This document shows, one piece after another, positions 24,301-64,000 of a stretch of DNA of 64,000 nt. Made by a program: the position numbers and the translations under genes. Each line of letters starts with the position of its first letter. The first letter of the stretch is position 1. Location of the stretch: NCBI RefSeq assembly GCF_047663525.1, contig NC_092612.1:3009501-3073500 (forward strand), written 5' to 3'. The notes beneath the pieces are model-generated. The model was not told the DNA's origin. It saw nothing but the letters and a program-made list of their open reading frames with translations, and did not search any database. The stretch is from Anas platyrhynchos (Eukaryota > Chordata > Aves > Anseriformes > Anatidae).

Positions 24301-27300
24301 CGGCACCCCAGCTCTGCCCGCTCCGGGGGTGTTCCCCAGCCCCTCCTGGCTGGGGACAGTGCCCTAATGCCTGTGGGCTCCTCGTGCATTGGCCATGGGG
24401 CTCGTTGCTGGCCGTGGGGCTCGTTGCCATGGGGCACGGAGCCCCTGCAGCACCTCCTGGGCTCCCCTGCACCCCTCCGCTGCAGTGCTGGCATGCCCCA
24501 GCCCCAGCCCTGCCTGGGGAGCAGGGCCCTGGGTGCCTCAAGGGGAGCGCTCGTTAATTAGCGAGGCTGTTTATCAGGAGCCCTGTTTCCTAATGGGCCC
24601 CGGGGGGGGTCCCAGGTGGGGGCTCCCTCAGCGCTGGGTGCACCAGAGAAAAGGGCAGGAGGGCTTCCAGCCCCGCTGCTCCCCGGCACGGCGTTTCCCT
24701 CGGCACAGCGGGACGCGGCGCCTGTTTTCACTCCCGTGCAGCCCCGGGGGGGGGCACGGCTGCCCCAGCTCCTTGCTCCTGTGGTGCTGAGCACCAGCTA
24801 CCGGCCCCCCCTCGTGGTGTGGGGCAGCTGGCTCGGGGTGTGCTGGCGTCCCAGCCCTGAGTCCCGTATGGAGTTAATTGCAATTTTCTCCCCGGGGCCA
24901 TTTCTTTAATAACAAGCTCTCTTCCCCCCCCCCAACACCTCCCTTTCACACCACATCAAAGGTGGAACATGAAAGGTCGCCGGCACCGCGCGGAGCAAGG
25001 GTGGCTGCCTCAGCACCTTGATGTCGGAGGAGTTGCCCGGCGGCCGGCGGCTTGCTGGGCTCCTGCCTCGCCGGGCTGTGGGGCTGGGACGGGGAAATAG
25101 CGGCTGCGCGGCGAGGGAGGTGCCAAGGGGGGGCTGCTCCCTGCCCCGAGGGGTCTGGCTCGGAGCCCCCCCGGCACTGGCAGCACCGCCAGGAGGGCGC
25201 CAACGCTGCCGGGGTCCCCAGTGGGTGCTCGGCCCCATCCAGTTCTCTCCACGGTGCCGATCCGGGGCGCTGCGTGCCGGGTGCCCCAGGCCCTGGCCGG
25301 ACGCCCGGGCTCCCCAAACGGTGCCGGGGGCAGTTTCCAGGGTGGGGCGTCTGCACGCGCAGCCTTGCCCGCTGCCTGCCGAGCCCTGCCGGGCGGCCAT
25401 GGGAAGCTGCGCTGCGGGCACGGGTGCCAAGGGGTCCCCGAGCTCTTCGCCAGGGCCTCGTGCGCCAGGATTCACTGGGAGAGGAGGGAAAGGGGCCGTG
25501 GGGTGGCGGTCCCAGGGGAGCGGGGCGAAGGGGAGGCTGCTCGTCCCTCCAAAAGCAGCGGGGTGGTGGCACCCGGGGGTGCAGGGGGGGTCCCTTTGCT
25601 GCAGCGTGGCCACCGGGTCTCTGCCGAGCTGGGTGATGGAGCCGGGTCTGGTCGTTGTCGCGGGGCTGCTGCGGCATCTCGGTGCGGAGCCAGCGCCTCG
25701 CAGCGCCGCTTGGTAATTAATTGGCAGGAGCAGGGGGTCAGCGCGAGGCGGCTTGGCTGCGAGGATTACCGCGGCCGGGATTTCAATCGGGCACGGATTA
25801 GGAGCCAGCGGAGCCTCTCCTGAGTGGATCTGAGGGGATTGCCGCTCCTAATCAATGTAAATGAGGCTCCCCCAGGGCCACCCTTTACGGCATTAACAAA
25901 ATAACGGGATTAGCCAGAGCAGGGTGAGAAATCCTCTCTCTGAGCTGCGGCGCGTGGCGGGGCTGGGGCTGCGGGGCCGGGTGCGCAGTGGGCAGCCGCT
26001 GCGGCTGCCAGAGCATGGGGAGCACCGGGGGCATCGCAGCCGGGGGTCCTGAGCCCCTCCTGGGTATCCACGGCCGTGCTCTGCCCCAGGGCTGTGCAGG
26101 GTCTGTGTCCTCCAGGGTCCCTGCATGCCTTTGGGACCTGGTGTCCCTCAGCCCCGTGCACTGCTCGGTGTGTGTGTCTGTCCGTCTGTCTGTCTGTCTG
26201 TCCGTCTGTCTGTCTGTCTGTCCGTCATGCTCTGAGGCTGCCTGCAGCCCCCAGCACCCCCGTCTCATGCTCCCGTGCTCACACAGCGGTGTCACCCGTG
26301 CACGTGGCTTGGCATCCGTAGCATCCTTCCCTGCGTGGCGGCATCGCTCCTGCCTCAGGCAGCCCAGGGGGGCGGTGAACGCCCAGGAGCCCCCACCCCA
26401 AATTAAGCCCTGTGTCTGCAGGGCACCGGGCTGGGGGGAGTGGGATTGTGGGGAGAGGGGTTTGCCCAGCCTGGTGTGGGGACACAGGGCCCCCCCCCCA
26501 TTCCATATCACAGAGGTGGCCCAGCCCCGCTCTGCCCCCCAAGCCCCCCATGGCACAGCCCTACAGAAGCAGACCTGGCTGCAGCCCCCGCGGGCTGGGG
26601 GATGTGGGGCAGCCCCAATGTGCCACGAGCTCTGGACCAATGTCCCCATCCGTGCCATCTCACCGCGTTGCTCAGCCCCACCGCTGCCTTCCTGGTGTCC
26701 CGTGGGTCTGGGGGGCTCGCAGTTACCCACAGAAGCTGTCCTTGGGTGTCGTGCCCGGTGCTGCAGCGGTGCCTCCGGGGACAGGGTCTGGGGCCTGGAG
26801 AGGGACAGATCCTGCCCCCACGCTGGGGATCCATGGGGCTGAGGCTGGGCAAGGCGGGTGCATGGGGTGGCTCGGGGATGGGGGGGTCAGGAGGTTGGTG
26901 GGGGGGCAGAGCATCCTGGTTGGCATAAACAGGTCAAGCACGGGTGTCTCCAACCCCATCCCCACCCCTTCCCTTGCAGCCTGCGGCGGGAGGGCTACAC
27001 GGTGCAGGTGAACGTCAACGACTACCTGGACATCTACTGCCCGCACTACAACGCCTCGGTGCCCGAGCACAGGCTGGAGCAGTACGTGCTGTACATGGTG
27101 AACGCGGAGGGCTACCGCACCTGCAACACCAGCCAGGGCTTCAAGCGCTGGGAGTGCAACCGGCCCCACGCGCCCCACAGCCCCATCAAGTTCTCGGAGA
27201 AGTTCCAGCGTTACAGCGCCTTCTCGCTGGGCTACGAGTTCCGCGCGGGGCAGGAGTACTACTACATCTGTACGTGGGGCAGCAGGGTGGGACTCCCCCC

Positions 27301-28302
27301 CCAGGACCCCCCCAGACACCCCTCATCTGGGTCCCCTGAATCCCACCCCAGCTCGTCCCCAGGCTCCAGGGGGGCCTTTCCACACACCCCCAAGCTGGGA
27401 CCCCCCCCGCACACCCCTGGCCAGGCAGCTGTGCCCACCCCCGCTCCAAGGAGGCCCCCTGACCTCAGGGATGGGTCGGAGAGTTTGGGGTGCTGTGGAG
27501 GGATGGGGGCTGGGGGGGAGCTTGGGGGTGGAGTTGTGGGGGTGCCGGTGCAAGGTGGGGATGCTGGAGCAAATCTGAGGTGCTGATGGATGCGGTATGG
27601 GGGTGCAGGGTGGGGGTGCACCACATTTTGGGGTGCAGGGTGGGGATGCAGCGTGTTTTGGGGTGCAGGATGGGGGTGCTGCAACCCCCCACACCCAGAG
27701 CCAGTGGGCAGCAGCTCGCTGAGCCGTGGGGTGCCCGGCACTGGGGTCCCCTCCCCAGGAGCCACCCCAACCCGCTCTTGCTTTGCAGCCACACCGACGC
27801 ACAACCACCGCCGGGCCTGCCTGAAGATGAAGGTGTTCGTGTGCTGTGCCTCCAGTGAGTAACCCCCGTGGCACCCCGGGGTGGGGGCTGCACGGATCCA
27901 TCGGGTCTTAGGGGGCTCCCAGGTCCCCCCGTCCTGGCCGGTGGGGCTGCGGGAGCGGGGTTGGCCAGGGTGCCTCACCCCGTCCCCTCTCTCCCTCTTA
28001 CAGCGTCGCACTCCGGGGAGAAGCTGGCACCCACCCTGCCGCAGTTCACCCTGCGGCCCGAGGTGAAGATCGAGGACCTGGGTGAGTCCGGGGCACCCAC
28101 ACCCCGCAGCCGCCTGGTGTGTGGGGGGGTCAGGGCCAGCAGCCCCCACCGCTCCGCTCACCGCCTCTCTCTTCCCGCAGAAAACTTCAACCCGGAGATC
28201 CCCAAGCTGGAGAAGAGCATCAGCGGCACCAGCCCCAAGCGGGAACACTTGCCCCTGGCTGTGGCTGCCGCCCTCTTCCTAATGACGCTGCTGGCCTCCT
28301 AG
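18399..28302 (+). CDS. EFNA3: Ephrin-A3, five coding exons
   Basis: Exons 18399..18508, 26980..27269, 27789..27854, 28004..28081, 28181..28302 join to 666 nt (221 residues). All junctions are GT-AG with phases 2,1,1,1. GPI-anchored EphA ligand. Signal peptide 1-24 ([14 protein letters not shown]), then [11 protein letters not shown] with an N-glycosylation site. Exon 2 carries [40 protein letters not shown] and [17 protein letters not shown], nearly identical to mammalian EFNA3. The C-terminus [20 protein letters not shown] plus a hydrophobic tail ending LLAS is the EFNA3 signature. The glycine-rich insertion after CPHYN in human EFNA3 (238 residues) is absent and replaced by [11 protein letters not shown], which adds an N-A-S site. 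Intron 1 is 8.5 kb and rich in AT islands. Confidence 0.95.
18940..18972. repeat. Poly-T / poly-G low-complexity tract
   Basis: GATTTTTGTG followed by about 13 T and then about 10 G, in EFNA3 intron 1. Sequence length here may be unreliable. Confidence 0.7.
20545..20700. promoter_or_regulatory. AT-rich island in EFNA3 intron 1 (candidate enhancer)
   Basis: GGATATTTATTGTTAGGC, CGCAATTATAGCCGC, GGATTAGATAAATTATGG, GCAATCAGAGCAATAAACAA. About 150 bp of high AT content inside GC-rich intron. Confidence 0.45.
21690..21760. promoter_or_regulatory. Short candidate element, EFNA3 intron 1
   Basis: CACCACTTCAAGGCGGCTTT followed by TATCTGCCTGGCTTTGTATTTCAGG. It holds a GATA-type TTATCTG site. It stands out weakly. 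Confidence 0.3.
22455..22575. promoter_or_regulatory. AT-rich island in EFNA3 intron 1 (candidate enhancer)
   Basis: GGTAATTGAGTCACCGG, GATTGATGGTTTAATTAAAA, CCCAATTAAAAACCTCATTG, AGCAGGGATTAAAGGGATCG. Several TAATTA/TTAATT cores and an AP-1-like TGAGTCA fall within 120 bp. Confidence 0.5.
24550..24600. promoter_or_regulatory. Short AT-rich island, EFNA3 intron 1
   Basis: GCTCGTTAATTAGCGAGGC contains an almost perfect palindrome (CTCGTTAATTAGCGAG), followed by TGTTTATCAGG. Confidence 0.4.
24860..24975. promoter_or_regulatory. AT-rich island, EFNA3 intron 1
   Basis: GTATGGAGTTAATTGCAATT, CCATTTCTTTAATAACAAGC, CACATCAAAGGTGGAACATG. ATCAAAGG is a TCF/LEF-type site. Confidence 0.4.
25705..25925. 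promoter_or_regulatory. AT-richer islands, EFNA3 intron 1
   Basis: TTGGTAATTAATTGGCAGG near 25712, then GATTTCAATCGGGCACGG, CTCCTAATCAATGTAAATG and GGCATTAACAAAATAACGGG to 25920. It looks like a compound non-coding element. Confidence 0.45.
26165..26226. repeat. (TCTG/TCCG)n tetranucleotide microsatellite
   Basis: About 15 tetramer units of GTCT/GTCC alternating in a higher-order pattern (TCCGTCTGTCTGTCTG). Confidence 0.9.
27601..27682. repeat. 30-bp tandem repeat in EFNA3 intron 2
   Basis: Two full and one partial copy of a 30-bp unit starting GGGTGCAGGGTGGGGGTGCA and ending in TTTTG, with few differences between copies. Confidence 0.85.
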
Positions 28303-33525: not shown

Positions 33526-36188
33526 ATGGAGAGGCTGCGGGTGGCCCTGGGGGCGCCCCTCTGGGTGCCCCTCCTGGGGCTGTGCTGGGCGGCGGCAGCT
33601 GAGCGCCACACCGTCTTCTGGAACAGCTCCAACCCCAAGTGAGTCCCGGGAGCCCCCCGACGCCCCCCAAAACCCGGGGGTGGGGGGAGGGAGCGCGGAC
33701 GGGGCGGGCCCCCGAGGGCGCGGACGGCGGCGGCGGGGCCGTGCGCGGGGTCGCGTTCCCCGGGGCTGCGGGCTTTGTTTGGGGCGGACAGGGGGATTCA
33801 CGCTGCCCCCACTTTTGCTCTTCCCCCTGCCCTCTTTGCTCCCCCCCCCGTTCTCCTGACCCGGCACCGGGGGCGCCCCCGGGGCCGGGAGGGGCCGGGA
33901 CGGCAGCGGCGGGGTGAAGTCCGCGGAGCCAGGTGCGGGCCGGGAGAACCGGGAAGGGATTGAGGGGGGGGCACGGGGGGGCCCTTTCCGTTCCCAGGGC
34001 CGAGCGGAGCGGGGCCTCTTCCTTCCCCGGGGGGGGGGTGGCGCGGCGCCAGCGGAGGCGCCGGGGCTCAGGGAAGCCGTGTTGACAAACACGGGGCTGG
34101 CCCCGGGTCCCGCGGCACGGGCAGGATGTGCGCGGCCGCCGGTGCCCCCCCCCGGGAGGTGGGGGGGCGGCGGGGGTCGTGGGCAGCCCCCGTGTCTGCC
34201 CCGGGGCTCGGTCCCCAGGTAGGGCCGGGTTTTTGGGGTGCCCACCTGAGGTTGTGGGGTTCACTCTTAGCTATGCGCCCCGGTGTGGTGTAGGGGTGCC
34301 CCCCTTCTCTAGGCCGTGCCCCCCCCTTGGTTGTAGGGGTGCTCCCTTACATGCTGTGGGTGTGCCCCCCCAGCTGTGTGCCCCCAAGTGCTATAGGGGT
34401 TACCCAAACCCCCGGGATGTGCCCCCAGATGTTATAGGGGTTACCCACACCCCCAGGATGTGCCCCCCAGCCCTGTGCCCCCACAAGTTATGGGGCTGCC
34501 CATCCCCCAGCCCTGTGCTTCTACAGGCTATAGGGGTTGCCCAAACCCCCCAGTTTGTGCCCCTACATGTTATAGGGTCACCCACCCACCCCCACCCCGG
34601 GATGTGCCCCCCAGCTCCATGCAGGGCAGCTCCCAGGTGGGGTCCCACAGGGGTTTGGGAAGCTGGAGCCGGCCCCAGCAGGGAGGCCGTCCCTTCCCAA
34701 GGCTGCCGCAGCCAGCGAGGTGAGGAGACCCCTCCGTGGCCCCTCTGAGACCCCTCCGTGGCCCCTCGCAGGCTGCCTGCGGCCCCCTTCATCGCCCCCC
34801 CAGCAGCTCCGGTGCCGTGCAGCCTCCCGGGAGAGCCTCGCTGGCGGGCGAGGTGTGGGGAGCAGCACGCTGGAGCCAGGCCGGCTGCCCCCCCCCCGGG
34901 CGAGAGCTGCTCACACCTAATGGCTCCCCGGAGCTTTGGGGACAGCCGGGGAGCGCGTCCTGGCCGGTCCCCTCCCTCCTGCAGTGGGGGAGGGCTTTTC
35001 CTTTTCCCCAGCACCACCAAAAAAACAACAAAAAAAGCACTCCCAAAAAGCACCGCGGGGCTTTGTGCGGTGCCGAGCAGCTTTCAGGCCGCCCTGTGTT
35101 GGGCTCTGAGGGTTTGGGGGAGTTGTGGGGAGTGCTACCTCCGTGCCCCAAATCCCCCGCACCATGTGCTGACCCCCGCCGCCCCCCTGCCCCAGGTTCC
35201 TTTGGAGCGACTACACGGTGGAGGTGCGCCTCAACGACTACCTGGACATCATCTGCCCGCACTACGAGGAGGGCAGCGTGGCCCCGCACGCCATGGAGCG
35301 CTACACCCTGTACCTGGTGGACCTGGAGGAGTACCAGGCCTGCAAGGCCCGCTCCAAGGAGCAGATCCGCTGGGAGTGCGACAAGCCCAGCGCCTTGCAC
35401 GGCCCCGAGAAGTTCTCGGAGAAGTTCCAGCGCTTCACCCCCTTCACGCTGGGCAAGGAGTTCAAGGAGGGGCACAGCTACTACTACATCTGTGAGTGCC
35501 CGGGGGGCTGTGTTCCTCCTGCTGTGGGGCTGGGGTCCCTTTGGGGATTTTCCCCCTCTAACTCCTGCCTCCTGCCCGCAGCCAAGCCGATTCATCACCA
35601 CGGGGAGACGTGCCTGAAGCTGAAGGTGACGGTGCTTGGCAAAGGCAGTGAGTATCTGCGGGTTTCCCCCTGCTGTGTGCTGCTCGCCCTCCTCCCCCCT
35701 CGAGGCCCTGGGTCCTCGGCCGGCTCTGCCTTTCCTGCGCTGAGTCACGGCGGGGCCGTGGCCCCCTGCCAGCCCCGGCTGTGGGGCTGGGGACGGTGCC
35801 AGCGGCCGGAGCGGGGATGGCACCGGGGAGACCGGGCTCCATGGTTGGGGGGGTGCCTTTTTGGGGTCCCAGGACACCGGGGCAGCCCCTCACGGCGTGT
35901 CTTTGTGTTTGCTTTGCAGCTCAGGCGCCGCCTGCCCCCGCCTCGACGCAGAAGGGGAGGATCCAGGCAGGTAGGTGGTGGAGGACGCGTCCGAGCGGCT
36001 GCGGGGCAGGCTCAGGAGCAGGGTGTGGGGCACGGGGGCCACTCACGGATCTTTTTTTTCCTCCCCCTGCAGACGACGCAGCCGCACACGTCCTGAGGAG
36101 CGTGGGGCAGAACTCGGCGATGCGGGCCAGCAGCCCCTTCACCTTCATCAGCCTCCTGCTGCCCCTCCTGGTGCCGCAGGGGCTGTGA
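33526..36188 (+). CDS. EFNA1: Ephrin-A1, five coding exons
   Basis: Exons 33526..33638, 35196..35491, 35582..35647, 35920..35970, 36073..36188 join to 642 nt (213 residues; human is 205). All junctions are GT-AG with phases 2,1,1,1. GPI-anchored ligand of EphA2 and other EphA receptors. Signal peptide about 1-25 (PLWVPLLGLCWAAAA), then ERHTVFWNSSNPK with an N-glycosylation site. Exon 2 has NDYLDIICPHYEEGSVA, RWECDKPSALHGPEKFSEKF and QRFTPFTLGKEFKEGHSYYY, the last nearly identical to human EFNA1. Exon 3 SKPIHHHGETCLKLKVTV also matches. Exon 4 is only 51 nt. The tail ends in FTFISLLLPLLVPQGL, the GPI signal. Exons 3 and 4 are symmetric, so the exon-skipped forms known in mammals are possible here. 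Confidence 0.95.
34280..34612. repeat. Minisatellite in EFNA1 intron 1
   Basis: Degenerate tandem units of about 40-60 bp sharing GCTATAGGGGTTACCCAAAC and GGGATGTGCCCCC, roughly seven copies. It lies in intron 1 (33639-35195). Confidence 0.85.
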
Positions 36189-37410: not shown

Positions 37411-39092
37411 ATGGAGCTGCAGCCGGTGCTGGCCGCCGCCTGCCTCCTCTTCACCATGGGCATGTTCTGCAGCGGGCTGTGAGCCGCCGGGAACCGGGGG
37501 CGGCGGGGGGGGGACGGGGGAGGGAACGGGGGGGGGAAGGGAGGGACTCGGGAGGCCGGGGGGGGGGTGCTGGGGGCGGGGCGGGGGGAGGCGGGGAGGG
37601 AATGGGAGGTGCGGGGGGTGGGGGGGGGCAATGGGAGGCTGGGGGGGGAATGGGAGGCTGGGGGGTGGAATTGGGGGTGCGATAGGAGGCTGGGGGTGCA
37701 GTGGGGGTGCAATGTGGGTGCAGTGTGGGAGGTATTGAGGCTGGCTGGGGGGGCCGGGGGCTCCAGGCTGAAGGCCAGGCGTGCAGGGTCAGGTGGGGGC
37801 TCTGAGGGTGCGGGGGGGGGCACTGGGGTGTAGGAGATAATGCAGAGAAGGTCCCAGCTGCTGAGGAGGGGCTGGTGGTATTTTATGGGGCTAAGGTTGT
37901 AGCCCCCCCCACAACGCTGTAGGGCCTCCCTGTGGCTCTGGGCACCCAGGAGGCCTCTCCCCTCCTGGCCCTAGGTTTGACCTGTGCAGGATAATCACTG
38001 CGAAGAGCGTGGACAACATCCAGCTCCTGCGCTTCCTCGCCATCAAAGCCAAGTACACAGGGGGCACAACCTTTTGGGGCCGGGGGGTTGAATTTCGGGG
38101 GTGGGCGTAGGCAGGAGCCCCCAGGCCTGTGCCGCTCATCCTGCAGCAACCTGTGCTGGCTGGGCTACGGGTGCCAGAAGCCGGACTGGATGCTGATCAT
38201 CATCAACAGCATCGGGGCCACTCTGCAAAGCCTTTACATCCTGGTGTACTTCTACTACAGCCCTGCCAAGGTGGGTGCTGGCCCGGCTGGGTCGGGGGGG
38301 CACAGAGGAACCCCCACGCTGACGGCCCCGCTCTGTGTGCCGCAGCGTCAGGTGCTGCTGAGGGTCCTGACGTTCCTGGCCCTGCTGGCTGCGGCCTATG
38401 GCTACTTCTTCTACTTCACCGACAAGGACACCCTGCGGAGCCGCGTGGGGCTCTTCTGCAGCAGCCTCACCATCATGATGTACGCCTCGCCGCTCAACGA
38501 CCTGGTGCGTAAAGCTGGGTGGGACCGGGGGAGGTGTCGGGGGGGCTGCATGGCACCAGGCCAGCCCCTCGCTCCCCACAGGCCAAGGTGATCCGGAGCA
38601 GGTCAACGCGCTGCTTGTCCTTCCCCCTGGCCGTCACCACCTTCCTGGCCTCCAGCTGCTGGACGCTGTACGGGCAGTTGGTCAAAGACAACTACATCAC
38701 GGTGGGTTGGGGGCAGCGGGAGGTTGGGGGCTGCTGTGGGTTCCCTCCTCCCCCCTCCTCTCCAGCCCCTTTCAGCGGGGCGCCTGGCACTGGGCCGGAC
38801 CCCGTCCGGCGTCGCGTGTGTCACACAGCAGAGCCCGTGACTAGGCTCGGCGAGATGAGTATTGATTTTAATTAATTAGATGGGATAAGGCCAATAAATC
38901 TCCCCCGGCGACGCGGGGCTGGTGGCGCGGGGGAGGGCGGCAGCAGCACCGTGAGCTGGGTAACGCCGTCCGGCCCTGTGTGCTCCACAGGTCCCCAACG
39001 TGCCGGGCATCGTCACCAGCGTCGTGCAGCTCTGGCTGTTCTGGCGCTACGCCCCGGGCCGGGACAATCCCCACAGACCCCTGCACGTCTGA
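37411..39092 (+). CDS. SLC50A1: Sugar transporter SWEET1 (MtN3/saliva family), six coding exons
   Basis: Exons 37411..37478, 37975..38052, 38147..38270, 38346..38504, 38582..38701, 38991..39092 join to 651 nt (216 residues; human 221). All junctions are GT-AG. Family role: facilitated sugar flux across Golgi and plasma membranes. Seven hydrophobic segments in two triple-helix bundles: residues about 6-22 (AAACLLFTMGMFCSG), NNLCWLGYG, WMLIIINSIGATLQSLYILV, VLTFLALLAAAYGYFFYF, CSSLTIMMYASPLNDL (the SPL motif of the second bundle), FPLAVTTFLASSCWTLYG, and VPNVPGIVTSVVQLWLFWRY. The AKSVDNIQLLRFL stretch after helix 1 matches the animal SWEET signature. The N-terminus is a few residues shorter than in human. 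The start has a good context (GCGAGCATGG). Confidence 0.93.
37590..37745. repeat. G-rich short tandem repeats, SLC50A1 intron 1
   Basis: Loose repeats of GGGAATGGGAGGCTGGGGG and GGGGGTGCAATG. Intron 1 spans 37479-37974. Confidence 0.7.
38812..38905. promoter_or_regulatory. AT-rich island in SLC50A1 intron 5
   Basis: GATGAGTATTGATTTTAATT, AATTAGATGGGATAAGGCC and CAATAAATCTCC in the 289-bp last intron (38702-38990). It contains an internal AATAAA at 38893-38898. It is either a regulatory element or, less likely, an intronic poly(A) site. Confidence 0.4.
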
Positions 39093-39510: not shown

Positions 39511-39859
39511 AGCGCCTGCTTGTCGTCCCCTCCCGCTCTGGGCTGTGCTGGGTGCCGGGGCCAGCACGGCTCCTGTCCCCACAGCGCTTTGGCCTTGGGA
39601 TGCTGGGGCTAATCCTGGCACCCTCTGAGCCCTGCAGCTCCTCATCCACCAGCACCCGCTTGCCCGTGGGGTGCAGCAAACCCCCACAGGGGGCTCCAGC
39701 CTCACCCCGGGAAGGGGGCGGCAGCACTGGGTGGTAGGGGCAGGGAGTGGGGCACGGAGGAAGGCAGCGCTGCCTGAGGGTGCTCCTCCGACCTCTCCAA
39801 GCAGCAGCATGGGGACAGCGGTCACAGCGTGGAAAGAAAAGTCCCTTCCGTAGCACGGA

Positions 39860-40075
39860 CACAGGGCTTGCTACCGCCCATTATGCCAGCAAACTTAAAA
39901 TCAATTAAAATCCTCGCTAAAACCACGGCGCTCGAGTGTGCGCATCAAATCAAGGCAGCCGTTGGCGGCGACCCAAGCTCAATTAATGAATTAACAATGA
40001 TCTGGAATGAAGTTATCAGGCAAGCGCATCAGCAGATGGACGGGAGCGAGCGCGGGTGACCAAGTTACACAACAG
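39860..40075. promoter_or_regulatory. AT-rich island downstream of SLC50A1 (candidate conserved element)
   Basis: About 200 bp with CTTAAAATCAATTAAAATCC, GCATCAAATCAAGGCAG, CTCAATTAATGAATTAACAA and TGGAATGAAGTTATCAGG. A 76-codon open frame covers it, but it lacks splice sites, homology or a good context, so I read this as non-coding. The spacing of AATTAA cores is typical of homeodomain-bound enhancers. Confidence 0.5.
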
Positions 40076-43114: not shown

Positions 43115-44582
<1,468 letters not shown>

Positions 44583-45250: not shown

Positions 45251-48200
45251 ATGGCCGAGGGCGAGGACCTGCAGACCTTCACCTCCATCATGGACGCGCT
45301 CGTCCGCATCAGCGTGAGCGGCGGCGGGGACCGGGCGGGGACCGAGCGGGACCGGGCCGGGCTCTCCCGGGACCGGCGTCGCCATGGCAACGCGGCGGGG
45401 CGGCGGCGGGGCCGGGGCGGCCGCGATGGCCCCGGGGGGGGGGCGGCCGGGGGTGCCCTTGAGGGCCCCGAGGGCCGCGGAGAGGCCTCGCTGCCTCGGC
45501 CCCGTTCCCCACCGGGCCCCGGGGGGGGGCGGATCGGCCCTCGCCGAGCCCCGGGCGGGGCGCACCGGGCACCGGGGAGCGCCCCCCGAGGCCTCCCGGG
45601 ATGCTGAGAGCCCGGTGCCCCCGCGGGGACTGGGGTGGGGAGGGCCCGGGGGTGTCCCGGTGCCGTGCTGGGGTCCTGGGGCTGGGGCTGGTCCCGCTCG
45701 GGACCGGATCCCGGTGCTGGTCCCCGTCCTGGCTCTGGTCCTGGTCTCGATGCCGGTCTCTGTCTTGGCCCTGATCCTGGCCCCGATTTTGGCCTTGATG
45801 CCAGTCCCTGAGCCTGGTCCTTGATCCTGGTCTCGATGCTGGTCCCTGATCCTGGTCCTGGTCCTGGTCCTGATCCTGGCCTTGACGCTGGTCCTCATCC
45901 AGGCCCTAATCCTGGTCTTGGTGCTGGGCCCTATCCTGGTGCTGCTCCTGGCCCTGATCCTGATCTCAGTGCCGGGCCCTATCCTGGCCCTATTCCCAGT
46001 CCTATCCCGGGTCCCAGTCTCCATCCTGTCCCGGTCCCCATCCTGGCTGCTCCCGGTGACGCTCTCCCCCTCTCTCCTCAGACCAGCATGAAGAACATGG
46101 AGCGGGAGCTGGTGTGCCCGGTGTGCAAGGAGATGTACAAGCAGCCGCTGGCCCTGCCCTGCATGCACAACGTCTGCCACGTCTGCGCCAGCGAGGTGCT
46201 GCTGCAGCACGGCTACCTCTGCTGCGACCCCACCTCCGAGCCCTCCTCGCCCGCCGCCACCCCGGCCACCCGCAGCCCGCGCCTGGGCCGCAGGGGGGTC
46301 CCCAAACCCGACCGCCTGGACCGGCTCCTGAAGTCAGGTGGGGGGGACGGGGACGGCGCTGCCGGGGGGCGGAGGGGCTCTGCCGGCCCCGAGGAGCCGC
46401 GGGGCGCTGGGCTGTGTGTGACGCCTCCCCGGCCTCCTGCAGGGTTCGGCACCTACCCGGGGCGGAAGCGGGGCACCGTGCACCCCCAGACCATCAGCTT
46501 CCCCTGCCCGGCCTGCCAGCGGGACATCGACCTGGGCGAGCGGGGCCTCGGCAGCCTCTTCCGCAACCTGACCCTGGAGCGCGTGGTGGAGCGCTACCGC
46601 CAGACCATCAACATCAGCGCCGCCATCATGTGCCAGTTCTGCAAGCCCCCGCAGCTGGAGGCTACCAAGGGCTGCACGGAGTGCAAGTCCAGCTTCTGCA
46701 ACGAGTGCTTCAAGCTCTACCACCCCTGGGGCACCCAGAAGGCTCAGCACGAACCCACGCCGCCCACGCTCACCTTCCGCCCAAAGGTACGGCCTCCTCC
46801 GTCGAGGTCTTTGCTATTTGGGGTTCCCCGGGTGCCACAGCAGACGAGCTGGGGAGAGACCCTTGGGAGGGGGGGGTCCTAAAACTCTGCTGAGCTTCCT
46901 CGTGTCCGTGCAGGGTCTGATGTGCCCAGAGCACAAGGAGGAGGTGACTCACTACTGCAAGACCTGCCAGCGGCTGGTGTGCCAGCTCTGCCGCGTGCGA
47001 CGCACTCACACCAGCCACAAGATCACGCCGGTGCTCAGCGCCTACCAGGCTCTCAGGGTAAGGGCTGCTGCGGGGCTGCGCGCTCGGGTCGGGGTCAGGA
47101 CGCCCACGGGGAGGCAGGGAGGAAGCAGGGGTGCGAGCTGAGCTCGCAGCACAGATGGGGTGAGGGCTCTGTTTGCAGGTCGGGGGCGCACGAGGCCAGT
47201 GGTGGCTAACCTCCTTCCTTGCAGGAGAAGCTGACAAAGAGCCTTGCCTACATCTTGAGCAGCCAGGACACGGTGCAGACCCAGATTGCTGAGCTGGAGG
47301 AGACGGTGAAGCACACGGAGGTAAGGGCACGAGGTCCCCGAGCAGTCCCTAGGTGGGGATTGGCACCTCCTGGCTGGTCCCTTTGCCCCGTGGGGGCCGT
47401 ACAGCGCGCTGACAGCGCCGTGCTTGGCAGGTGAACGGCTCGCAGGCCAAGGAGGAGGTGTCCCAGCTGATCCAGGGGCTGTGCTCCATGCTGGAGGAGA
47501 AGCGGGCGTCCCTGCTGCAGGCCATCGAGGAGTGCCAGCAGGAGCGGCTGGCCAGCCTGCACTACCAGATCCAAGAGCACCAGGCCATGCTGGAGAACTC
47601 GGGCATGGTGGGCTACGCCCAGGAGGTGCTGAAGGAGACCGACCACCCCTGCTTTGTCCAGGCTGCCAAGCAGCTGCACAACAGGTACCAGGGTATGGGG
47701 ACCCGCGTGGGTGTCCCCGCGGTGTTGGGGCTGGCCGGTGCCCGAGGCAGCCCTCGCAGCCACCCTGATGTCCCCGCTCTCCTGTGCTGCAGGATCCTCA
47801 GGGCCACCGACTCGCTGCAGAGCTTCCGACCTGCAGCCACGGCCTCCTTCAGCCACTTCCAGCTGGATGTCAGCAGGGAGCTGAAGCTGCTCACAGACCT
47901 GGCCTTCATCAAAGGTAACCGCAGCAGGACCCCGGCACCGGCTGCAGCCCGTGTGGAGGCGCAGCCCCTGCGGGCAGAGCAGCTCCGTGCCCGCCCGTCT
48001 CCTCCCTTGGAGCCAGAGCTCGGCTCCGGCCACGGAGGGATGCGCTCAGGCAGGCGCCCGTGGATCTGCCGCCCCCCTCCCTGTCAGGAATGGCCCCAGC
48101 AGCCCCCAAAGTGCTCCCTGCCCTGCCCTGTGCCGGGGCTGCAGGCAAGGGGGCAGGAAAGGCAGGGCTGTGGTGTGAGGTAAGGGCAGCAGGAGGGTGA

Positions 48201-50568
48201 GTACGGAGCGGAGGCTGCCCCAGGTGCAGGGCAGGCGCTTCCCCACCAGGGCAGGTGCCGCCTGGGCCCTGCCGGACCGGCTGGCAACACTTTTCAGACC
48301 TGCTTCTACCTCTCTTTGTTTATAGGCTGCGGCCGCTGCTGATCGTCACCGAAGTAACTGAGGCAAGTCACTCCCCTGCCCCAGAGCCACCCCTGCTCTC
48401 TCTGTCCCATCCCTCCATCCCCACTCCTGCCCCATTCCCACTCCGCTGCCATCGACCATCCCCGTCCTGCCCGCTGGTGCTGGCAGGTGCTGGCTCTGCC
48501 CGCGCTCGCCACCCTTCTCTGCCCCCTCCCTCCATCTGCTGCAGCTCCTCCTGCCATCCCCATCCCCTCCTCACCCCATTTCTGCCTCTGCATCCCCTCC
48601 TCACCCCATTTCTGTCTCTGCATCCCCTCCTCAACCTCACTTCTGTCTCTGCACCCCCTCCTCACCCCATTTCTATCCCTGCATCCCCTCCTCACCCCAT
48701 TTCTGTTTCTGCACCCTCTCCTCACCCCATTTCTGTCTCTGCACCCTCTCCTCACCCCATTTCTGTCTGCATCCCCTCCTCACCTCCACTTCTGTCTCTG
48801 CACCCCCTCCTCACCCCATGTCTGTCTCTGCATCCCCTCCTCACCCCATTTCTGTCTCTGCACCCCCTCCTCACCCCCACTTCTGTCTCTGCACACTCTC
48901 CTCACCCCATTTCTCTCTCCATCCCCTCCTCACCCCATTTCTGTCTCTGCATCCCCTCCTCACCCCACTTCTCTCTCCATCCCCTCCTCACCCCACTTCT
49001 GTCTCCTTTCCACCCCTGCCTCCCTGCTCCAGTTACGCTGGCATCTTCACACCGCTCTGCCATCCCCATCTCTTCCTCCTCCTCCTCTCCTGCTGTCTCC
49101 ATCCTCTCTCTCTTTCTTTCTTTCTCTCTCTCTCTCCCTCCCTCCCCCCGACTTGCACTCAGCCTCTCTGGTCCCTGGAGCCTCACAGCAGCCAGCTCCT
49201 CTGTCTCCCCAACTCTCTCCCCCCTCTGGTGCCTACACACAGTCTCTGCAGCCAGATCCCCCTAGACTCCTGCTGGTTGTGCGTCCGTCCGTCCGGAATG
49301 CCCCCTCCCTGCGTCTGGCCGCCTCCCCACCCACGAGGGGGGGATGCTGCCTGATGCCTGCTCCCCCCCCCCCGTGCCTCTCCCCGCAGTGCCCGAGGCC
49401 CCCGTCATCGACACGCAGCGCACCTACGCCTACGACCAGATCTTCCTGTGCTGGCGGCTGCCGCAGCACTCGCCCCCCGCCTGGCACTACACCGTGGAGT
49501 ACCGCAAGACGGACGCCAAGGCCAAAGGGCTGAAGCTGTGGCAGCGGCGCGAGGAGGTGCGCGGCACCAGCGCCCTGGTCGAGTACCTGGACACCGACAG
49601 CGTCTACGTGCTCCGGGTGAAGGGCTGCAACAAGGCCGGCTTCGGGGAGTACAGCGAGGACATCTACCTGCACACGCCGCCCGCCCCAGGTGAGGGGACG
49701 CCCCCCCGGGGAGCAGTGTCTCCCAACCCACCCGTCCCTTGGGCTTTTCGCCGTCCCCTTCTCACCTCCTCTGCTCTCCTCCTCCCCGCAGTCCTCAACT
49801 TCTTCCTGGACAACCGCTGGGGTTTCAACCGGGACCGGCTGGCCATCAGCAAGGACCAGCGCGCCGTGCGCAGCGTGCCCGGCATCCCCATGCTGTTCGC
49901 GGCGGAGCGGCTGATGACCAGCTGCCACCTCTCCATCGACCTGGTCATCGGGGACGTGGCCATCACGCAGGGCAAGAGCTACTGGGCCTGCTGCGTGGAT
50001 CCCAGCTCTTACCTGGTCAAGGTGGGCGTGGGGCTGGAGAGCAAACTGCAGGAGTGGTTCCAGGTGCCTCAGGACGTGGTGAGCCCCAGGTGAGCGGGGT
50101 GGGGGCGCAGGGGGGCTTCGTGGGTGTGCAGGAGGTGGTGAGGCAGCCTACAAGAGCCTCTGCGCCGGGCCTCACCTGTCCCCCTGCCGCAGGTACGACC
50201 CTGACAGCGGCCACGACAGCGGGGCAGAGGACACGACGGTGGACGCGCCCCCGCCCTACGCCTTCCTCACCATCGGCATGGGCAAGATCTTGCTCTCGCA
50301 TGGCTCGGCGCTCACTTCTCGTGACCCCAACGGCTGCACCGTGCCCTTGCCACCGCGCATCGGCATCTGCCTGGACTACGAGCAGGGCAAGGTGAGCTTC
50401 TACGACGCCGTGTCCTTCCGTGAGCTCTGGGAGTGTGGCGTGGACTGCTCGGGGCCTGTCTGCCCCGCCTTCTGCTTCATCGGAGGGGGTGCCCTGCATC
50501 TCCAGGAGCTGGTGGCCAACAAGCAGGAGCGCAAAGTGACCATCGGGGGCTTCGCCAAGCTGGACTGA
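45251..50568 (+). CDS. TRIM46: Tripartite motif protein 46 (MAP-like axonal TRIM), ten coding exons
   Basis: Exons 45251..45313, 46082..46337, 46443..46786, 46914..47057, 47225..47320, 47431..47684, 47793..47914, 49390..49689, 49792..50089, 50193..50568 join to 2253 nt (750 residues; human 759). All junctions are GT-AG. In mammals TRIM46 bundles parallel microtubules at the proximal axon. RING starts at CPVCKEMY (C33, C36) and CMHNVCHVC; its second half (FPCPACQRD) follows a long Ser/Pro insert, as in human. Next come a B-box 1 ([18 protein letters not shown]...CNECF, about 165-190), B-box 2 ([20 protein letters not shown], about 225-262), coiled coil and COS box about 265-425, FN3 ([20 protein letters not shown] onward, 427-525), and B30.2/SPRY to the end ([11 protein letters not shown]). 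The start context is GAGCCATGG. It is head-to-head with KRTCAP2. Confidence 0.96.
45690..46050. repeat. CCTGGT/CCTGAT-type repeats, TRIM46 intron 1
   Basis: Degenerate short tandem repeats of hexamer-like CCTGGT, CCTGAT and CTGGCC blocks fill the second half of intron 1 (45314-46081) up to the exon 2 polypyrimidine tract. Confidence 0.8.
48556..49012. repeat. 30-bp minisatellite in TRIM46 intron 7
   Basis: About fifteen copies of a 30-bp pyrimidine-rich unit containing CATCCCCTCCTCACCCCATT followed by TCTGTCTCTG, some shortened. It is in the 1.5-kb intron 47915-49389. One strand is almost free of G, so the tract could form triplex DNA. Open frames across it are repeat artefacts. Confidence 0.93.
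49098..49150. repeat. Polypyrimidine (CT)n/(CTTT)n tract
   Basis: About 50 bp of uninterrupted C and T (CTCTCTCTTTCTTTC...) in TRIM46 intron 7. Confidence 0.85.
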
Positions 50569-54128: not shown

Positions 54129-57100
54129 TCAGAGGTTGTCGGAGGAGGCAGACGGGTTGGTGTAGGTGAAGGTGCCGCCCCCCGCAATGGTGCCTGCCAC
54201 CTGGGAGAGGGGAAACAAGGGGGGGTCACAACAGAGCCGGGCTGGGAAGGGCCGGGGGCTGAGCCCCCCCAAAGTCCCCACGAGGCCTGGGGGCGATGGG
54301 AGACCCCCTGGCGAGCAGATCCATGGGGGTCAGCCCTGCAGCAGCCAGTGCCACGGGCACCACGAACAGCCGGGTTTTAACCAAAAATACCCATGTGGAC
54401 ACCCCCAGCCCTCCTCTGGGGCTGTCCCAGCCCCCCGGCCACGGGGGCCAGTGGAGGCTCAGCGCAGCCAGAGCAGCCTGGGCCGCTTTTCTCTCCCGCT
54501 GGCTAAGCCTGCCCAGCAAGAGCGAAGGTAAATATTTACCCAGGCCCCTGGTATTTGAACAGCGAGAGCTGCTTGCACAGCGCGGAACAGCTGGATACGG
54601 CCCCCGCCCCGCAGCACCGGGCACAGCAAACAGCGGGGCCGGGGCCAGCCCCAAATCCCACACCACCGAGGCCAGCCGCAGCCCCACACGTGTGCACGTG
54701 GCGCCCGACGCTGCTGGTGCCAGATCTGGACCCCCTCACCCTCCCCTTTGCCCCCTCGTGCCCCGGCTCCAGGGTGCCAGGATCTGGCCGAGCCTGAGGA
54801 TGGGGCGCGGGGAGGCAGCGGTCCCGCCGAGCCCCCACGCACCGGCGAGGGTGGGCAGGGGGGGGAGCGGCTGCCCAAGGTCGCCGGCAGCTTCCTGGCT
54901 CCGGCCGGGGCTGCCAGCACCACGGCTCCATCCAGGCGTGAAAGGTGCGCTCACCTCCCTGCCAGGCTCCCAGGGACCGGGGCCACCAAGTGCCCGTCCC
55001 CACCGGCTGGTTTCATCCTGCCGGCTCCATCAAGGGCAGGGGTGAGGGATGCGGCCGCACCGAAAAGTGGTGGCCCTGGCACCACCCCGGTGCCAGGACA
55101 CCGCGGGCGCCCGGCTCTCACCTGGCTGTAGGGGTTGTGCTTGGTGTTGGGGGACACGTAGCGCCCGTGGCTCTGGTACGGGGGGTACTGGGCCATGGGG
55201 TGGTAGGAGTCCTTCGTGCTGAACAGGTCCAGCTTCCCTCGGCTCTTCCGACGGCAAGAGCAGGTGGTCTGGGGGGGCAGGGGGGCTCCGTGAGGGGGAC
55301 GGGGTCAAGGGCCCAAAGGCAGCGGGGACGGGGACAGGGGCTCAACAGCAGAAAGCCGGAGAGGATGAGGATGGGGACTCACCAGGAGAGCACAGATGAG
55401 GATGCTCAGCAGCACCAGGATGCAGACCAGGACCAGCAGAGCAATGGCCCAGTCCGGAACCTGAGGCTGCTCCACCGGGGCCGTCACTTCCACGCCACCT
55501 GAAGAGCGGCAGAGCCGTGTCCGTACCTCCGGGCACAGCCCCGCCAGACCCCCGGGAAGGGGCCAGAAGGGAAAGAGCCCTTCTCCCCTCGGGCCCAGCC
55601 CAGCACCCTGACACAGGCACTCGTCCCACTTGTCCCAACAGGGATAAACCCAGGACGGGTGCAGAAGCCACCCAGAGCGGCCGTGCCGGGCTCCCCCTGC
55701 TCAAAGCACCCCCGGGGCCCGAGCCCCCCACTCACTTTGGATGTCGGCCAGCTGCAGGTCCATGATGTACCCGTTCGAGTCCAGCTGGCTTCTCAGCTTC
55801 TTCTCGGCAGAGTCACTCGTGACGGAGTCCTCGCTGTGCCCAAACACGAGGGTGGATTGCACCGCCACCGACCCTTGGCTGCGTGAGAGAGGAGGTGTTG
55901 GAGCCAGGACCGCCACCTCCCGCTGCCCCCTCCCGGCTGTCCCCCCCCCAGGGGCTCTGCACTGCGCTGGGCTTCCCAGCCCGAGCCTCCCGCCCACGGT
56001 ACCTGAATCGGAGCTCACTGCATCCCTTGTAGGTCTGCCTGCCCATGCAGCTTGTGCAGCCAAAGACACTTTCAAACTGGAAAAAAAAAAAAAACATTGG
56101 GGGGGTCACGACCACCTCCCCAGCTCTCACCCCACTGCCTCCCAACCCCAGCATCCTCCCCTTCACCCCAGCATGGCCCCATCTCCTGCTGCCCCCACCT
56201 CTCTGCCCAGTGGGACGGGGCTGCAGAAGGAGCTCACAGAGCCCAGGGTGCATTTACAGGGAGCCCCTGCCTAAGGTGGCTCCTTCCTGGCACAGACCAC
56301 GAGGTCTTTGCTTGCTGAGGGCAGCCAGCGAGCAGGGCTGGCACTCACCATGGTCAGGACAGCGCGGCTCAGGCTCCTGTACTCCTTCGACGTGGGATCG
56401 AGCAGGCTCTGGCTGAAGTTTCTGTTCAGAATGCGGAAGGACAGCGGGACGCGGAGGAGCAGCTGGACCACGGTGGGAGGCAGAGCTGCGGCTTTGCTGG
56501 GGTTGGGACCCCCGCTGCTCCCGAGCACGGCCATGGGGGTCTTGCTGTGCGCTGTGCTGCCCTGAGAGGTGACAGAGGCTGTCTTTGTGGGGACAACCTC
56601 GGCGCTGCTGTTCGTGGTGGCGTTGGTCTTGGACGTGGGACCCACGGAGCTGCCGTCGGTTGCGGTGCTGGCTTTGGAGGGGGGGACCCCATTGCTGTCA
56701 TTTGCGCTGATGTTGTTGTGGGGGAACAGAGGGATAATGGAGACAGTCACCACGGTGCTGTCGGTTGTGTCATTGCCGGCAGAGCTGTTGCCCGTTGGGA
56801 ACACGGTCACATGGGGGGGGACAGAGCCGTGGGACCCGTTGCTGCTGGTGTTCTGGGAGGTGGCGTTGTTCAGGGTGGGCGTCATCACCGTTGTCTCAGT
56901 GGTGGTGGTCTCCACGGTGGTGGTCTCGGTGGTGGTGGTCTCTGTGGTGGTTGTCTCGGTGGTGGTGGTCTCGGTGGTGGTGGTCTTGGCGGTGGTGGTG
57001 TTCAAGGCGTGCGTACCTGAAGGACAAAGGGGGTCAGGAACTGGGGCTACAGCATCAATTTGGGAAGAAATTCTACACAACGAGGCTCCTTCACGAGACC

Positions 57101-57962
57101 CTTCTCAGGACAAAAACGTGCAGAGAAGTCCCACAACCTCCACGAGAACAACGCCTGCAAGGCCAGCGAGAACTTCAGGAACATCCCCGGTGAGACTCAT
57201 GCTGGGCGCACGTGGCACGAGCAAGGGGTGCCTGGGCGGCTGCCCCGTGCCCAGCCCCGCAGAGCCGTGCCCCGCTCAGGACCCACCGCCGCGCCGTGCC
57301 ACTAAAACCTTTGTGATGAATGCAAACGGCTGGGCTAGGAAGGCAGAAAGCCCCAGGGCGCTCACACCCCTGCTCCCTGGGACGTGCATCGCCTGGCTCG
57401 CGGCCAGCGCAGGCGGCTCCTCGCGGGCGCTTTCCCAGCAGGTGCCGCAGGAGCCCTGGAGGAGCGCCCGGGGTCCGGACGTCTTGCCGAGGCACATGCC
57501 CGGATACCAGCCTGTGAGCCCCAGGCACAGCCTGCTCCATCCAGCCCCAGCACAGCCCGTCCGCCCCGTGCTCAGCCCCGGCCGATCCCTTCGGTCGGTG
57601 CTAAAAGGGACATGGACACCACCAAGGGCTGAGCAAGGTCCCCAGCTCCTGTTTTGTTTTTTTTTTTTTTGGAGGGGGACAATCAGCCCTAGGGCACTGC
57701 ACCCCAGGGACAGAGCGCACCAGGTGGTGATGCACCCGCTGCTGGGTGCTGAGGGTCACGGGGTGCCACCAGGTCCCTGCTCACAAAACCAACTGGGAGA
57801 CCCCCCCCCTCGCCTCCCCACCCCGTTACCACCCCGCACCCCCAGGTCCCAGCCCAGTTCCCACCAGCTCGAGGTGCCACCAGCCCCCGGTGCCACCAGC
57901 CCCCGCGTCTCACCTGCACCCAGCACCACGAGCAGCAGCGGCAGAAGCGCGGTGACCTCCAT
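54129..57962 (-). CDS. MUC1: Mucin-1, seven coding exons
   Basis: Coding exons in transcript order: 57962..57914, 57016..56349, 56076..56003, 55878..55736, 55498..55383, 55268..55122, 54200..54129. They total 1269 nt, 422 residues. All junctions are GT-AG. Membrane mucin of apical epithelia. Signal peptide about 1-17 ([11 protein letters not shown]). Exon 2 encodes a Ser/Thr-rich ectodomain (17-198) opening with a TTTTE pentapeptide repeat (about 25-55) and many N-glycosylation sites. There is no proline-rich 20-residue repeat as in mammals. SEA domain about 199-310 with QGSVAVQ at 265-271, matching the G|SVVV autocleavage site. TM about 328-350. The 72-residue tail begins at CSC (353-355) and keeps YHPM and YTNP, ending SSDNL like human TSANL. 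The human YEKV site is YSQV here. Position between TRIM46 and THBS3 supports orthology. Confidence 0.93.
56885..57000 (-). repeat. Coding ACC-rich pentapeptide repeat of MUC1
   Basis: Tandem 15-bp units ACCACCACCACCGAG (TTTTE, with one TTTVE), about six copies, inside MUC1 exon 2. Threonine-only O-glycosylation array, likely length-polymorphic. Confidence 0.85.
57017..57913. other. MUC1 intron 1
   Basis: 897-bp intron. It contains a poly-T run near 57653-57670 and no other feature I can support. Confidence 0.6.
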
Positions 57963-58076
57963 GGGGCTCGTCCAGGGGGGGCCCAGTGCCTGTGGGGGGG
58001 GCTCAGCGGCAGCTGCTCCTCCCGTTAGGCAGCGGTGTTGCGCGGTCGGGGACTGGTGGCTCAGCGGCGGCTGCAG

Positions 58077-58101
58077 CTTTATAGAGCACCTGGAGCAGGT
58101 G
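58077..58101 (-). promoter_or_regulatory. MUC1: MUC1 TATA box and inverted E-box pair
   Basis: On the minus strand CTATAAAG (58084-58077) lies 115 bp upstream of the start codon, so transcription should start near 58050. Immediately upstream, CACCTG-GAG-CAGGTG (58087-58101) is a palindromic pair of E-boxes with a 3-bp spacer. Human MUC1 also has a TATA promoter. Confidence 0.75.
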
Positions 58102-59380
58102 GGGAGGCCCCACCCCGCCACCAGCCCCGACCTGCACGTGGTGAAGGGGGGGCCCCTCCACCCTGCTTGATGCAGGGCACGAGGGTGCCATCCCAGCCCC
58201 GGGACCCCTGGGGCACTCTCCGTCCTGTGCTGGGGTCCCCCTGCAGCTCCGTGCCTTCCATCCTGGGGTCCCCTCGTGGCTCTGCGCTCTCCCAGTTTGG
58301 GGACTGGGGAGGGGACCCTGCCACAGCATCCCCCCCATGCCATGGGACGTGGCCTAGGGCAGGGGCATTGGTTTTGGGGTCCTCGTGCAGGGGGGTCCCG
58401 GCTGTGTCATGGCTCCTGGGAGCTGGTGGGGAGCATGGGGTGGGGGCTGGAGCCCCGCAGCCCCCCTGTAGATGGGGGGCCTCATCCTCTCATTCAGCCT
58501 GGGGTTAATCATTACCGGCCCGGCCACTGCCTCGCCCTACACTCAAATAAACTCTGGCACCCCCCCACCCCAAACTGCTTACGCAGGTGAGGCCCAGGGC
58601 CCCACTAAAGCCCAGTCCCTCCCCACCGCCAAATGTCCCCACCTGGTCCCTGGGCTGGGCACAAGGGTCCCGGGGGGCACAAGCCCCCCTCTGCTGCTGG
58701 AGAAGACTTTTCTGCTCGCCCCGGGGGACACCAGGAGCAAACCCCGTGGGGGGGACGTGGCCCCCCAACGCCTGGTGCCAAGCCGGATGCCCGAGCCCCA
58801 CCCCAGAGGCACCAGGTGCCACCCAGGCCAGGCACAGAGCCCCCATCCTCCCCCCGGTGCCATGTGCTCCCCCCACGTCTGCGGGGTCCTTTCTGCCCTC
58901 CTACCCCTGCCCAGGGGGGAGAGCCCCAGTTCCTGTGGAGGGCTCGGGGTCCCAGCCCCAAACTCCCCCCCCAGCCCCATGCAGGGGGTACCGCTGTGCA
59001 CTGGGGAGGTGGGGGTGGTCTGAGGGTATTGGGGCAAGGGGGAGGGCAGGAGAGGGGGGACCCCCGGCTGCAGGAGCAGCAGCACAAAGGAGAGGCTGCC
59101 CGGGCACCAGCCCATCGCGTGCGGGACCCACCTGCACCCAGTGCCCGCAATGGGGCTGCGCCTTCCCCACCCAGCCCCTCACCTCTGTGCCCAGCACCGG
59201 GGACGGGGGTCCCAGGCTGCGAGCCGTGCCCCCCCCTCGACCACCCCCCAGCTCAGCACACGGGCACAGGTTTGTGGTTGTCGTCGTTTGGCTTTGTTTT
59301 TGGCTTTTTTTATGGGCTGCAAAACTCCTCTTAGCAGAAAAACACGGGGGGGGGGGGAGGAAGGGGCCAGGCACCCGGAG
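58102..59380. other. MUC1 upstream region
   Basis: No gene seen. An AT-relieved stretch at 58500-58560 (GGGGTTAATCATTACCGG, CACTCAAATAAACTCTGG) is a weak candidate element. Long open frames on both strands reflect GC bias. Confidence 0.4.
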
Positions 59381-59609
59381 CTGCGCCCCCAGCGCCCCCC
59401 AGCACCGGGCTCGGGAGCCGCGGGGCCGGGCTCCCCCCCGCCCCCCCTCCACCCCCCTCCACGCGTGGACGTGGGGCACGAACCCCACGCGCGCCCCCGC
59501 CCCACGCGCGCCCCCGCCGCCCCGCCCGGCGGCGCTGGAGCTGCGGCGCCTCCTGGCGGGCGCGGCCCCGCGCAGCGCCAGCACCGAGCCCCGGTGGAGC
59601 GGAACGGGA

Positions 59610-59713
59610 CCGGCACCGGCACCGGCACCGGCACCGGCACCGGCACCGGCACCGGCACCGGCACCGGGGCCGGGACCGGGGCCGGGACCGGGACCGGGAC
59701 CGGGACCGGGGCC
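59610..59713. repeat. (CCGGCA)n / (CCGGGA)n hexanucleotide array
   Basis: About nine perfect CCGGCA units followed by about eight CCGGGA/CCGGGGC units. All frames translate as Gly-Thr or Ala-Pro type dipeptides without stops. Confidence 0.92.
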
Positions 59714-59799
59714 GGCAGCGGAGCCCCCCGCGCCTCCGTGCCCCGCCGCAGCCCGCTCCCTCGGGCCCGGTGCCGAGGGATGCCCGGGGATACGGGCAC

Positions 59800-59929
59800 G
59801 GGACGGGACGGGACGGGACGGGACGGGACGGGACGGGACGGGACGGGACGGGACGGGACGGGGGCAGGCACCGCTCGGTAGCGGTGCCTGCCCCCGTCCC
59901 GTCCCGTCCCGTCCCGTCCCGTCCCGTCC
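59800..59929. repeat. (GGGAC)12 array with large perfect inverted repeat
   Basis: Twelve perfect GGGAC units (59800-59859), a GGGGGCAGGCACCGCT stem, a 4-base loop CGGT (59876-59879), the complementary stem AGCGGTGCCTGCCCCC and six GTCCC units. The arms 59826-59875 and 59880-59929 are perfectly complementary over 50 bp. In either strand this would make a very stable hairpin. Confidence 0.93.
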
Positions 59930-60320
59930 GGTGCCGTGCCCGCAGCCCCTCCGCTCCGCCCGGTACCGGCAGCACCGTGCCGGCAGCAAGCACCGCCCCA
60001 TCCCCTCCAGGCTCCGGTACCACCGGGACGGCGGCTGCCCGGTACCGGCCGCGTTGCCCTTTGAAGAGCGGGGCCCGCAGCGGGGCCGGTGCCGGGGCGG
60101 GGCGGGGCGGGCTCGGGGGAGGCGGGGGGGGGGAAGGGGGGGGGGTCGGGCCGGGGGGTGGTGGGGGGGGGGGGGGCACATTCCGCCGCGTTGCCGGGCC
60201 AGCCGTCGCCATGGCGACCGGGCACTGCCGCCGGGGCTCGGCGCTCACGGCGCAGTTCCCACGGAGCGGCCCCGCGCGGCGGCGGCGGCGGCGGCGGCTC
60301 CGCTCCGGTCCCTCCGGGGC

Positions 60321-60393
60321 GGCGGCAGGGCCGGGATGCGGTGCAGTGTTGTGCCCTCGCCTACCAATATTGCACTCGTCCCGGCCTCCCGCC
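60321..60393 (+). ncRNA. MIR92B: microRNA precursor mir-92b
   Basis: The 3' arm 60368-60389 starts TATTGCACTCGTCCCGGCC and matches the remembered human miR-92b-3p in full (22 nt). The 5' arm 60327-60348 (AGGGCCGGGATGCGGTGCAG...) differs at only two positions from human miR-92b-5p. The arms pair around a loop TTGTGCCCTCGCCTACCAA, and flanking GGCGG/CCGCC extends the stem. It lies on the plus strand between MUC1 and THBS3, the same place and orientation as MIR92B in human. Seed ATTGCAC is the miR-25/32/92 family seed. It lies about 200 bp beyond the THBS3 poly(A) signal, antisense to THBS3. Confidence 0.95.
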
Positions 60394-60596
60394 GTCCCGG
60401 GTTCCGCCGGTAGGACCGGGGTAGCACCGGGCTGACCCCCCACCCCCCCGCCCCGACGACCCCACCGGGAGGACGGCGAGGGAAGGAACCGGGAGCACGG
60501 GGCGGGAGAGGGGAGAAGGGGGGGGGAAATGGGGGCGGGAGGGGGCCGGGGCCGCCCCCTAGGAACGGGGCGCGCAGGCGAAAATCCGGTGGAAAC

Positions 60597-60602
60597 TTTA
60601 TG
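60597..60602 (-). promoter_or_regulatory. THBS3: Possible THBS3 poly(A) signal (variant)
   Basis: TTTATG on plus, CATAAA on the coding strand, about 185 nt after the THBS3 stop codon. No AATAAA lies between the stop and the mir-92b hairpin. Confidence 0.45.
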
Positions 60603-60786
60603 GCCCGGCGGCGGGCGAGGCAGGGCCGGGGGGGGGACGCGGCCCCGCCGCCCACCGGAGCCGCCCCGCCGCTCCCGGCACTGCAAAGTCCGCGGGTGGG
60701 GAGGGGGCGTCGGGGGGCGGCGGAGCCCGGCCCGAGCCCGGGTGCCGCAGGCGGAGGGGGGGGGCCCCGGGCCGGGCGGGGGCGGC

Positions 60787-64000
<3,214 letters not shown>

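Follow-up and report, generated by a model that had tools for sequence, protein, structure and literature searches.

The window analysed here, a 64-kb stretch of the duck genome, raises the question of whether a short hairpin on its plus strand is the bird counterpart of human MIR92B, a gene that lies at 1q22 between MUC1 and THBS3. For mir-92b in this genome, the sequence, fold, copy number, strand and gene order were determined directly. We conclude, at a probability of about 0.96, that this bird hairpin is orthologous to MIR92B, because its mature sequence, hairpin, strand and neighbors all agree with that gene.

Results

The following parts of the locus were delimited.

60313-60401, plus strand: stem of the mir-92b primary hairpin, pairing inward, from folds of 60311-60405 and 60300-60420
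60327-60348, plus strand: miR-92b-5p (star) arm, 20/22 against the human arm as we assume it, with ends inferred from human
60349-60367, plus strand: terminal loop region, from the fold
60368-60389, plus strand: mature miR-92b-3p, 22/22 against the presumed human sequence
60405-60408, plus strand: CNNC motif starting 16 nt past the 3p end, with an overlapping CNNC starting at +15

A preliminary description of this DNA had held that the 3′ arm equals miR-92b-3p. The 22-mer TATTGCACTCGTCCCGGCCTCC at 60368-60389 (+) shows no mismatch to the mature sequence that we assumed as the reference. It is the sole match to miR-92b-3p at up to three mismatches in the 64-kb window; at that threshold none of 100 shuffled sequences matched. 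The exact 22-mer was found in one copy among the 1,261,873,621 bases (42 contigs) of the genome, where the window is C26:3009501-3073500, and was absent from the viral contig set (viral_contigs). Allowing up to three mismatches, the whole genome contains four places: the window hairpin, a mir-92a gene on C1, a mir-92a gene on C10, and one further place on C4. The reversed 22-mer, run as a control, gave 16 genome places at up to three mismatches, and therefore such places count only together with their hairpins. The near-match on C4 (L003) was rejected as a microRNA gene, as its fold of −15.8 kcal/mol contains no microRNA hairpin. No tRNA was found by ARAGORN.

Two of these places bear on whether the window hairpin is a dispersed copy of mir-92a, either a retrocopy or a translocated duplicate, and not the mir-92b orthologue. 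The mir-92a genes (L002 on C1 and L004 on C10) share its seed and have a similar 3′ arm, with 19/22 mature bases alike and 3/22 different. However, the window 3p arm has the C at position 10 and the CC end that we take to be of the miR-92b type, unlike miR-92a, and outside the 3′ arm the hairpin matches human mir-92b as we assume it, next to the neighbor genes of MIR92B. Both mir-92a loci also cluster with mir-19 and mir-17 family hairpins, unlike the window hairpin, for which the 64-kb window and the stretches just beyond it (L005 and L006) contain no mir-17 or mir-19 family partner at the Rfam cut-off; the window copy is therefore a separate gene. An origin from mir-92a is thus extremely improbable. 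PMC1832191 describes the mir-92 and mir-92b hairpins as having little in common beyond the mature part.

Elsewhere in the assembly, copies of cytochrome b that contain TGA codons of the mitochondrial kind were observed on large contigs (C40:3512000-3512557, C40:3523854-3524411, C34 and C39). The two C40 copies lie 12 kb apart in inverted orientation with equal scores. By their sequence, the copies on C40, C34 and C39 are probable NUMTs. Contig C42 (16,604 bases) is evidently the mitochondrion, as its cytochrome b stays open in code 2. A 186-residue piece of that protein agrees at 175 positions with the chicken chain 1bcc_C of PDB, which was its best match (395.5 bits, the next at 326.7), so that the genome belongs to a bird.

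Folding of 60300-60420 (121 nt) gave a minimum free energy of −80.7 kcal/mol, whereas shuffled sequences averaged −57.3 (z −6.96) and 0 of 200 were as stable, and the two arms pair with each other, as the preliminary description had anticipated. The complete hairpin that it had placed at 60321..60393 is thus real, although the stem is a little longer, running from 60313 to 60401. A fold of 60311-60405 gave −68.3 kcal/mol, and the mature arm is almost fully paired within the stem-loop, as in animal microRNA genes. Near identity of the 5′ arm to the human one, also proposed earlier, was borne out at 20/22 bases against the human arm as we assume it, and both differences stay paired (C60331-G60384, and T60337-G60378 as a G-U pair). 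With the human 5p end at 60348 the Dicer side is flush with 60368 (pair 60348-60368), and the true 5p end may therefore be nearer 60350. Similarity to human MIR92B, as we assume it, thus comprises a 3p arm at 22/22, a 5p arm at 20/22, the strand and the neighbors on both sides, whereas the loop and outer stem are only partly similar. The SRSF3 processing motif CNNC is expected at about the distance past the 3p end at which the +15/+16 CNNC starts; further CNNC occur in the same C-rich 3′ flank at +1 and +4, and therefore that CNNC is weak evidence.

Stable hairpins abound in the window. When 73-nt windows were scanned across its whole length on both strands at a step of 15, 64 of 8524 folded at least as stably as 60321-60393, and therefore the identification is carried by the sequence match and not by the fold. 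This count, together with a nearby palindrome at 59815-59940, would be in line with an accidental resemblance to a microRNA, produced by some GC-rich inverted repeat of a CpG island. Against such an accident stand the exact 22-mer, which shuffles failed to match within three mismatches and which has a single copy in 1.26 Gb, and its location, in which both the strand and the flanking genes are as expected. In practice the 22-mer and the gene order refute a chance repeat, and we assign it a negligible probability.

The palindrome itself has 61-nt arms that are 95% complementary, separated by a 4-nt spacer, and is composed of GGGAC repeats, a non-repeat core and GTCCC repeats. It is the most stable fold among the scanned windows, and may either be genuine or have arisen as a fold-back during assembly.

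The genes of the window were identified with Pfam and by their order.

4182-4622, plus strand: ephrin exon, EFNA4 by order (Pfam)
26843-27583, plus strand: ephrin exon, EFNA3 by order (Pfam)
35173-36093, plus strand: ephrin exon, EFNA1 by order (Pfam)
37995-38588, plus strand: SLC50A1-like exon (Pfam MtN3_slv)
43118-43844, minus strand: KRTCAP2 exons (Pfam Keratin_assoc; one above and one below the cut-off)
45812-50565, plus strand: TRIM46-like gene (Pfam RING, B-box, COS, fn3 and SPRY; some pieces below the cut-off)
56274-57104, minus strand: MUC1-like exon (Thr/Ser-rich stretch and SEA; SEA at 24.7 bits against a curated cut-off of 26.4)
60787-64000, minus strand: 3′ part of THBS3 (Pfam TSP_3 repeats and TSP_C), extending past the window end

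Pfam was given 40 open frames (39 distinct, one entered twice), a chosen subset of the 610 open frames of at least 70 amino acids plus a few shorter ones, and 23 were assigned to a family at the chosen threshold; the gene search was not exhaustive. The location between MUC1 and THBS3 given by the preliminary description agrees with these results. Since the SEA match falls just under its cut-off, the assignment to MUC1 depends on position and on the Thr/Ser-rich stretch as well as on that match. TSP_C and TSP_3 were found in 62303-64000 (−), and TSP_C also in the open frame 60245-62299 (−); by gene order, the thrombospondin gene is THBS3 rather than another thrombospondin. Its stop codon is at 60787-60789, and the hairpin lies about 390 nt past the stop on the opposite strand. 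Beyond the window on the same contig are metaxin exons (+), with Tom37 above the cut-off and GST_C_6 below it, and glucocerebrosidase exons (−). We take the human order to be EFNA4-EFNA3-EFNA1-SLC50A1-(DPM3)-KRTCAP2-TRIM46-MUC1-MIR92B-THBS3-MTX1-GBA1. With DPM3 left out, the order and strands seen here fit that presumed neighborhood, including MUC1-like (−), hairpin (+), THBS3 (−), metaxin and glucocerebrosidase, so that the earlier assertion that position and strand are those of human MIR92B stands on the human order as we assume it.

Two further observations concern this gene row. Between SLC50A1 and KRTCAP2, an open frame at 39778-40056 (+) has a protein-like composition (MPANLKSIKILAKTTALECAHQIKAAVGG...) and no Pfam match. 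Past the window, two sets of glucocerebrosidase-like Glyco_hydro_30 exons stand in tandem (L006 2300-3913 and 8074-9824, both on the minus strand), which in sequence apparently amount to a GBA duplication in a bird.

The preliminary description had also called the long open frames around the hairpin, on both strands, spurious. Five of the six frames are free of stops within 60321-60393, which fits that account. The frame 60245-62299 (−) is not wholly spurious, however, because a genuine thrombospondin exon lies inside it.

The hairpin is embedded in a CpG-rich region.

59250-60999, no strand: CpG-rich island round the hairpin (GC 0.78-0.83 and CpG observed/expected 0.77-0.97 in 500-base windows)

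This island is likely a promoter region. A palindromic motif resembling the X-box bound by RFX, of which we assume the consensus, was observed at 60205-60218 (GTCGCCATGGCGAC), some 95-110 nt upstream of the hairpin, and is the sole plus-strand match to its pattern in 57500-61500; it is possibly a promoter element. On the minus strand, a CATAAA hexamer at 60597-60602, presumably a variant poly(A) signal, could end THBS3 ahead of the hairpin. Long G-rich runs adjoin the hairpin at 60115-60176 and 61361-61408. Runs of this kind may hinder sequencing and could hide such genes in short-read assemblies.

At gathering scores, Rfam gave no match in the whole 64-kb window. The mir-92 model (RF00464) scored the hairpin at 26.4 bits, below its gathering cut-off of 47, while that model gives 85 and 84.6 bits to this genome's two mir-92a genes; a scan at Rfam cut-offs therefore misses mir-92b. 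The mir-25 model (RF02020) gave 21.9 bits (cut-off 40.5) and the ciona-mir-92 model 30.7 bits (cut-off 56), each again below the cut-off. A permissive Rfam scan of 60250-60470 returned 26 matches, all below their cut-offs, with the best E-values for mir-92 and ciona-mir-92.

Discussion

These scores might point to a mir-92b that has decayed or fallen silent, a relic in which the sequence was kept and transcription or processing was lost in the lineage. Against decay, however, the 22-nt mature arm fully matches the human one as we assume it and pairing survives both 5p changes, a retention across the bird-mammal divergence that would not be expected of a relic. A duck small-RNA study also names a cpi-miR-92b-3p (excerpt of PMC7460075). 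Overall a relic is unlikely, at a few chances in a hundred. The mir-92b orthologue in the window is presumably an ordinary working microRNA, judged by its sequence.

Messenger RNAs whose 3′ UTRs contain matching sites are repressed by the 3p arm of the miR-92 family, which has the seed AUUGCAC. By what is known of the family, the stem would be part of a polymerase II transcript that starts in the surrounding CpG island and runs on the plus strand, downstream of THBS3 and antisense to it. Cleavage by Drosha/DGCR8 would be expected near 60327/60389, and cleavage by Dicer near 60348-60350/60368. Argonaute would then take up the 22-nt 3′ arm, which has AUUGCAC at positions 2-8 and would repress mRNAs bearing GUGCAAU in their 3′ UTRs, and the window mir-92b would have targets in common with both mir-92a genes found elsewhere in this genome.

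The name cpi-miR-92b-3p, whose prefix denotes the painted turtle, is what the duck study shares with the window gene. That study, on embryonic breast muscle, suggests "from our results" that PIK3CA is targeted by cpi-miR-92b-3p, and by its naming rule a suffix-free name should mean a sequence unchanged from the database entry (PMC7460075). Some of its classes of named microRNAs failed to map to the duck genome, and cpi-miR-92b-3p may or may not belong to these (PMC7460075). In other reports, miR-92b occurs in zebrafish neural cells that are proliferating (PMC4159003) and acts on reporters of Gata6 and Tbx20 in cells from mouse and human (PMC11882518); neither report is decisive for the identification of mir-92b. 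The same holds for PMC8789304, PMC1388199, PMC7931589, PMC3763532, PMC8728216, PMC5788541 and PMC7006513. In PMC4091757, hsa-miR-92b-3p is flagged as without a perfect chicken match; miR-92a is flagged likewise, and therefore the mark is weak evidence that miR-92b is absent. In the open-licence literature, outside which most subscription papers and preprints fall, neither the combination of mir-92b, MUC1 and THBS3 nor the term gga-miR-92b was found, and searches by term gave no occurrence in PMC12954441 or PMC4539667.

The mir-92b described here is an already known gene in a known place, new only in the detail of its Rfam scoring. The practical point is that mir-92b is under-called by Rfam cut-offs alone, at least in this genome. 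The chances seem to us evenly balanced that this is a general gap of Rfam-based bird annotation, in which the mir-92 model rejects the hairpin in every bird; those even odds take in the proposed cause as well, namely that beyond its mature arm the hairpin bears little resemblance to mir-92a, and that it is very GC-rich. A scan of 48 bird genomes with Rfam models ascribed many missing noncoding RNAs to microchromosome assembly, and mir-92b is not among the noncoding RNAs in the stretch of that article considered here (PMC4378963). If the gap is general, apparent absences of mir-92b from bird catalogues would be artefacts of annotation and assembly, like those of other GC-rich microchromosome genes. 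The locus itself establishes that a bird has kept a conserved vertebrate microRNA, within the type of GC-rich stretch that assemblies and model-based annotation miss.
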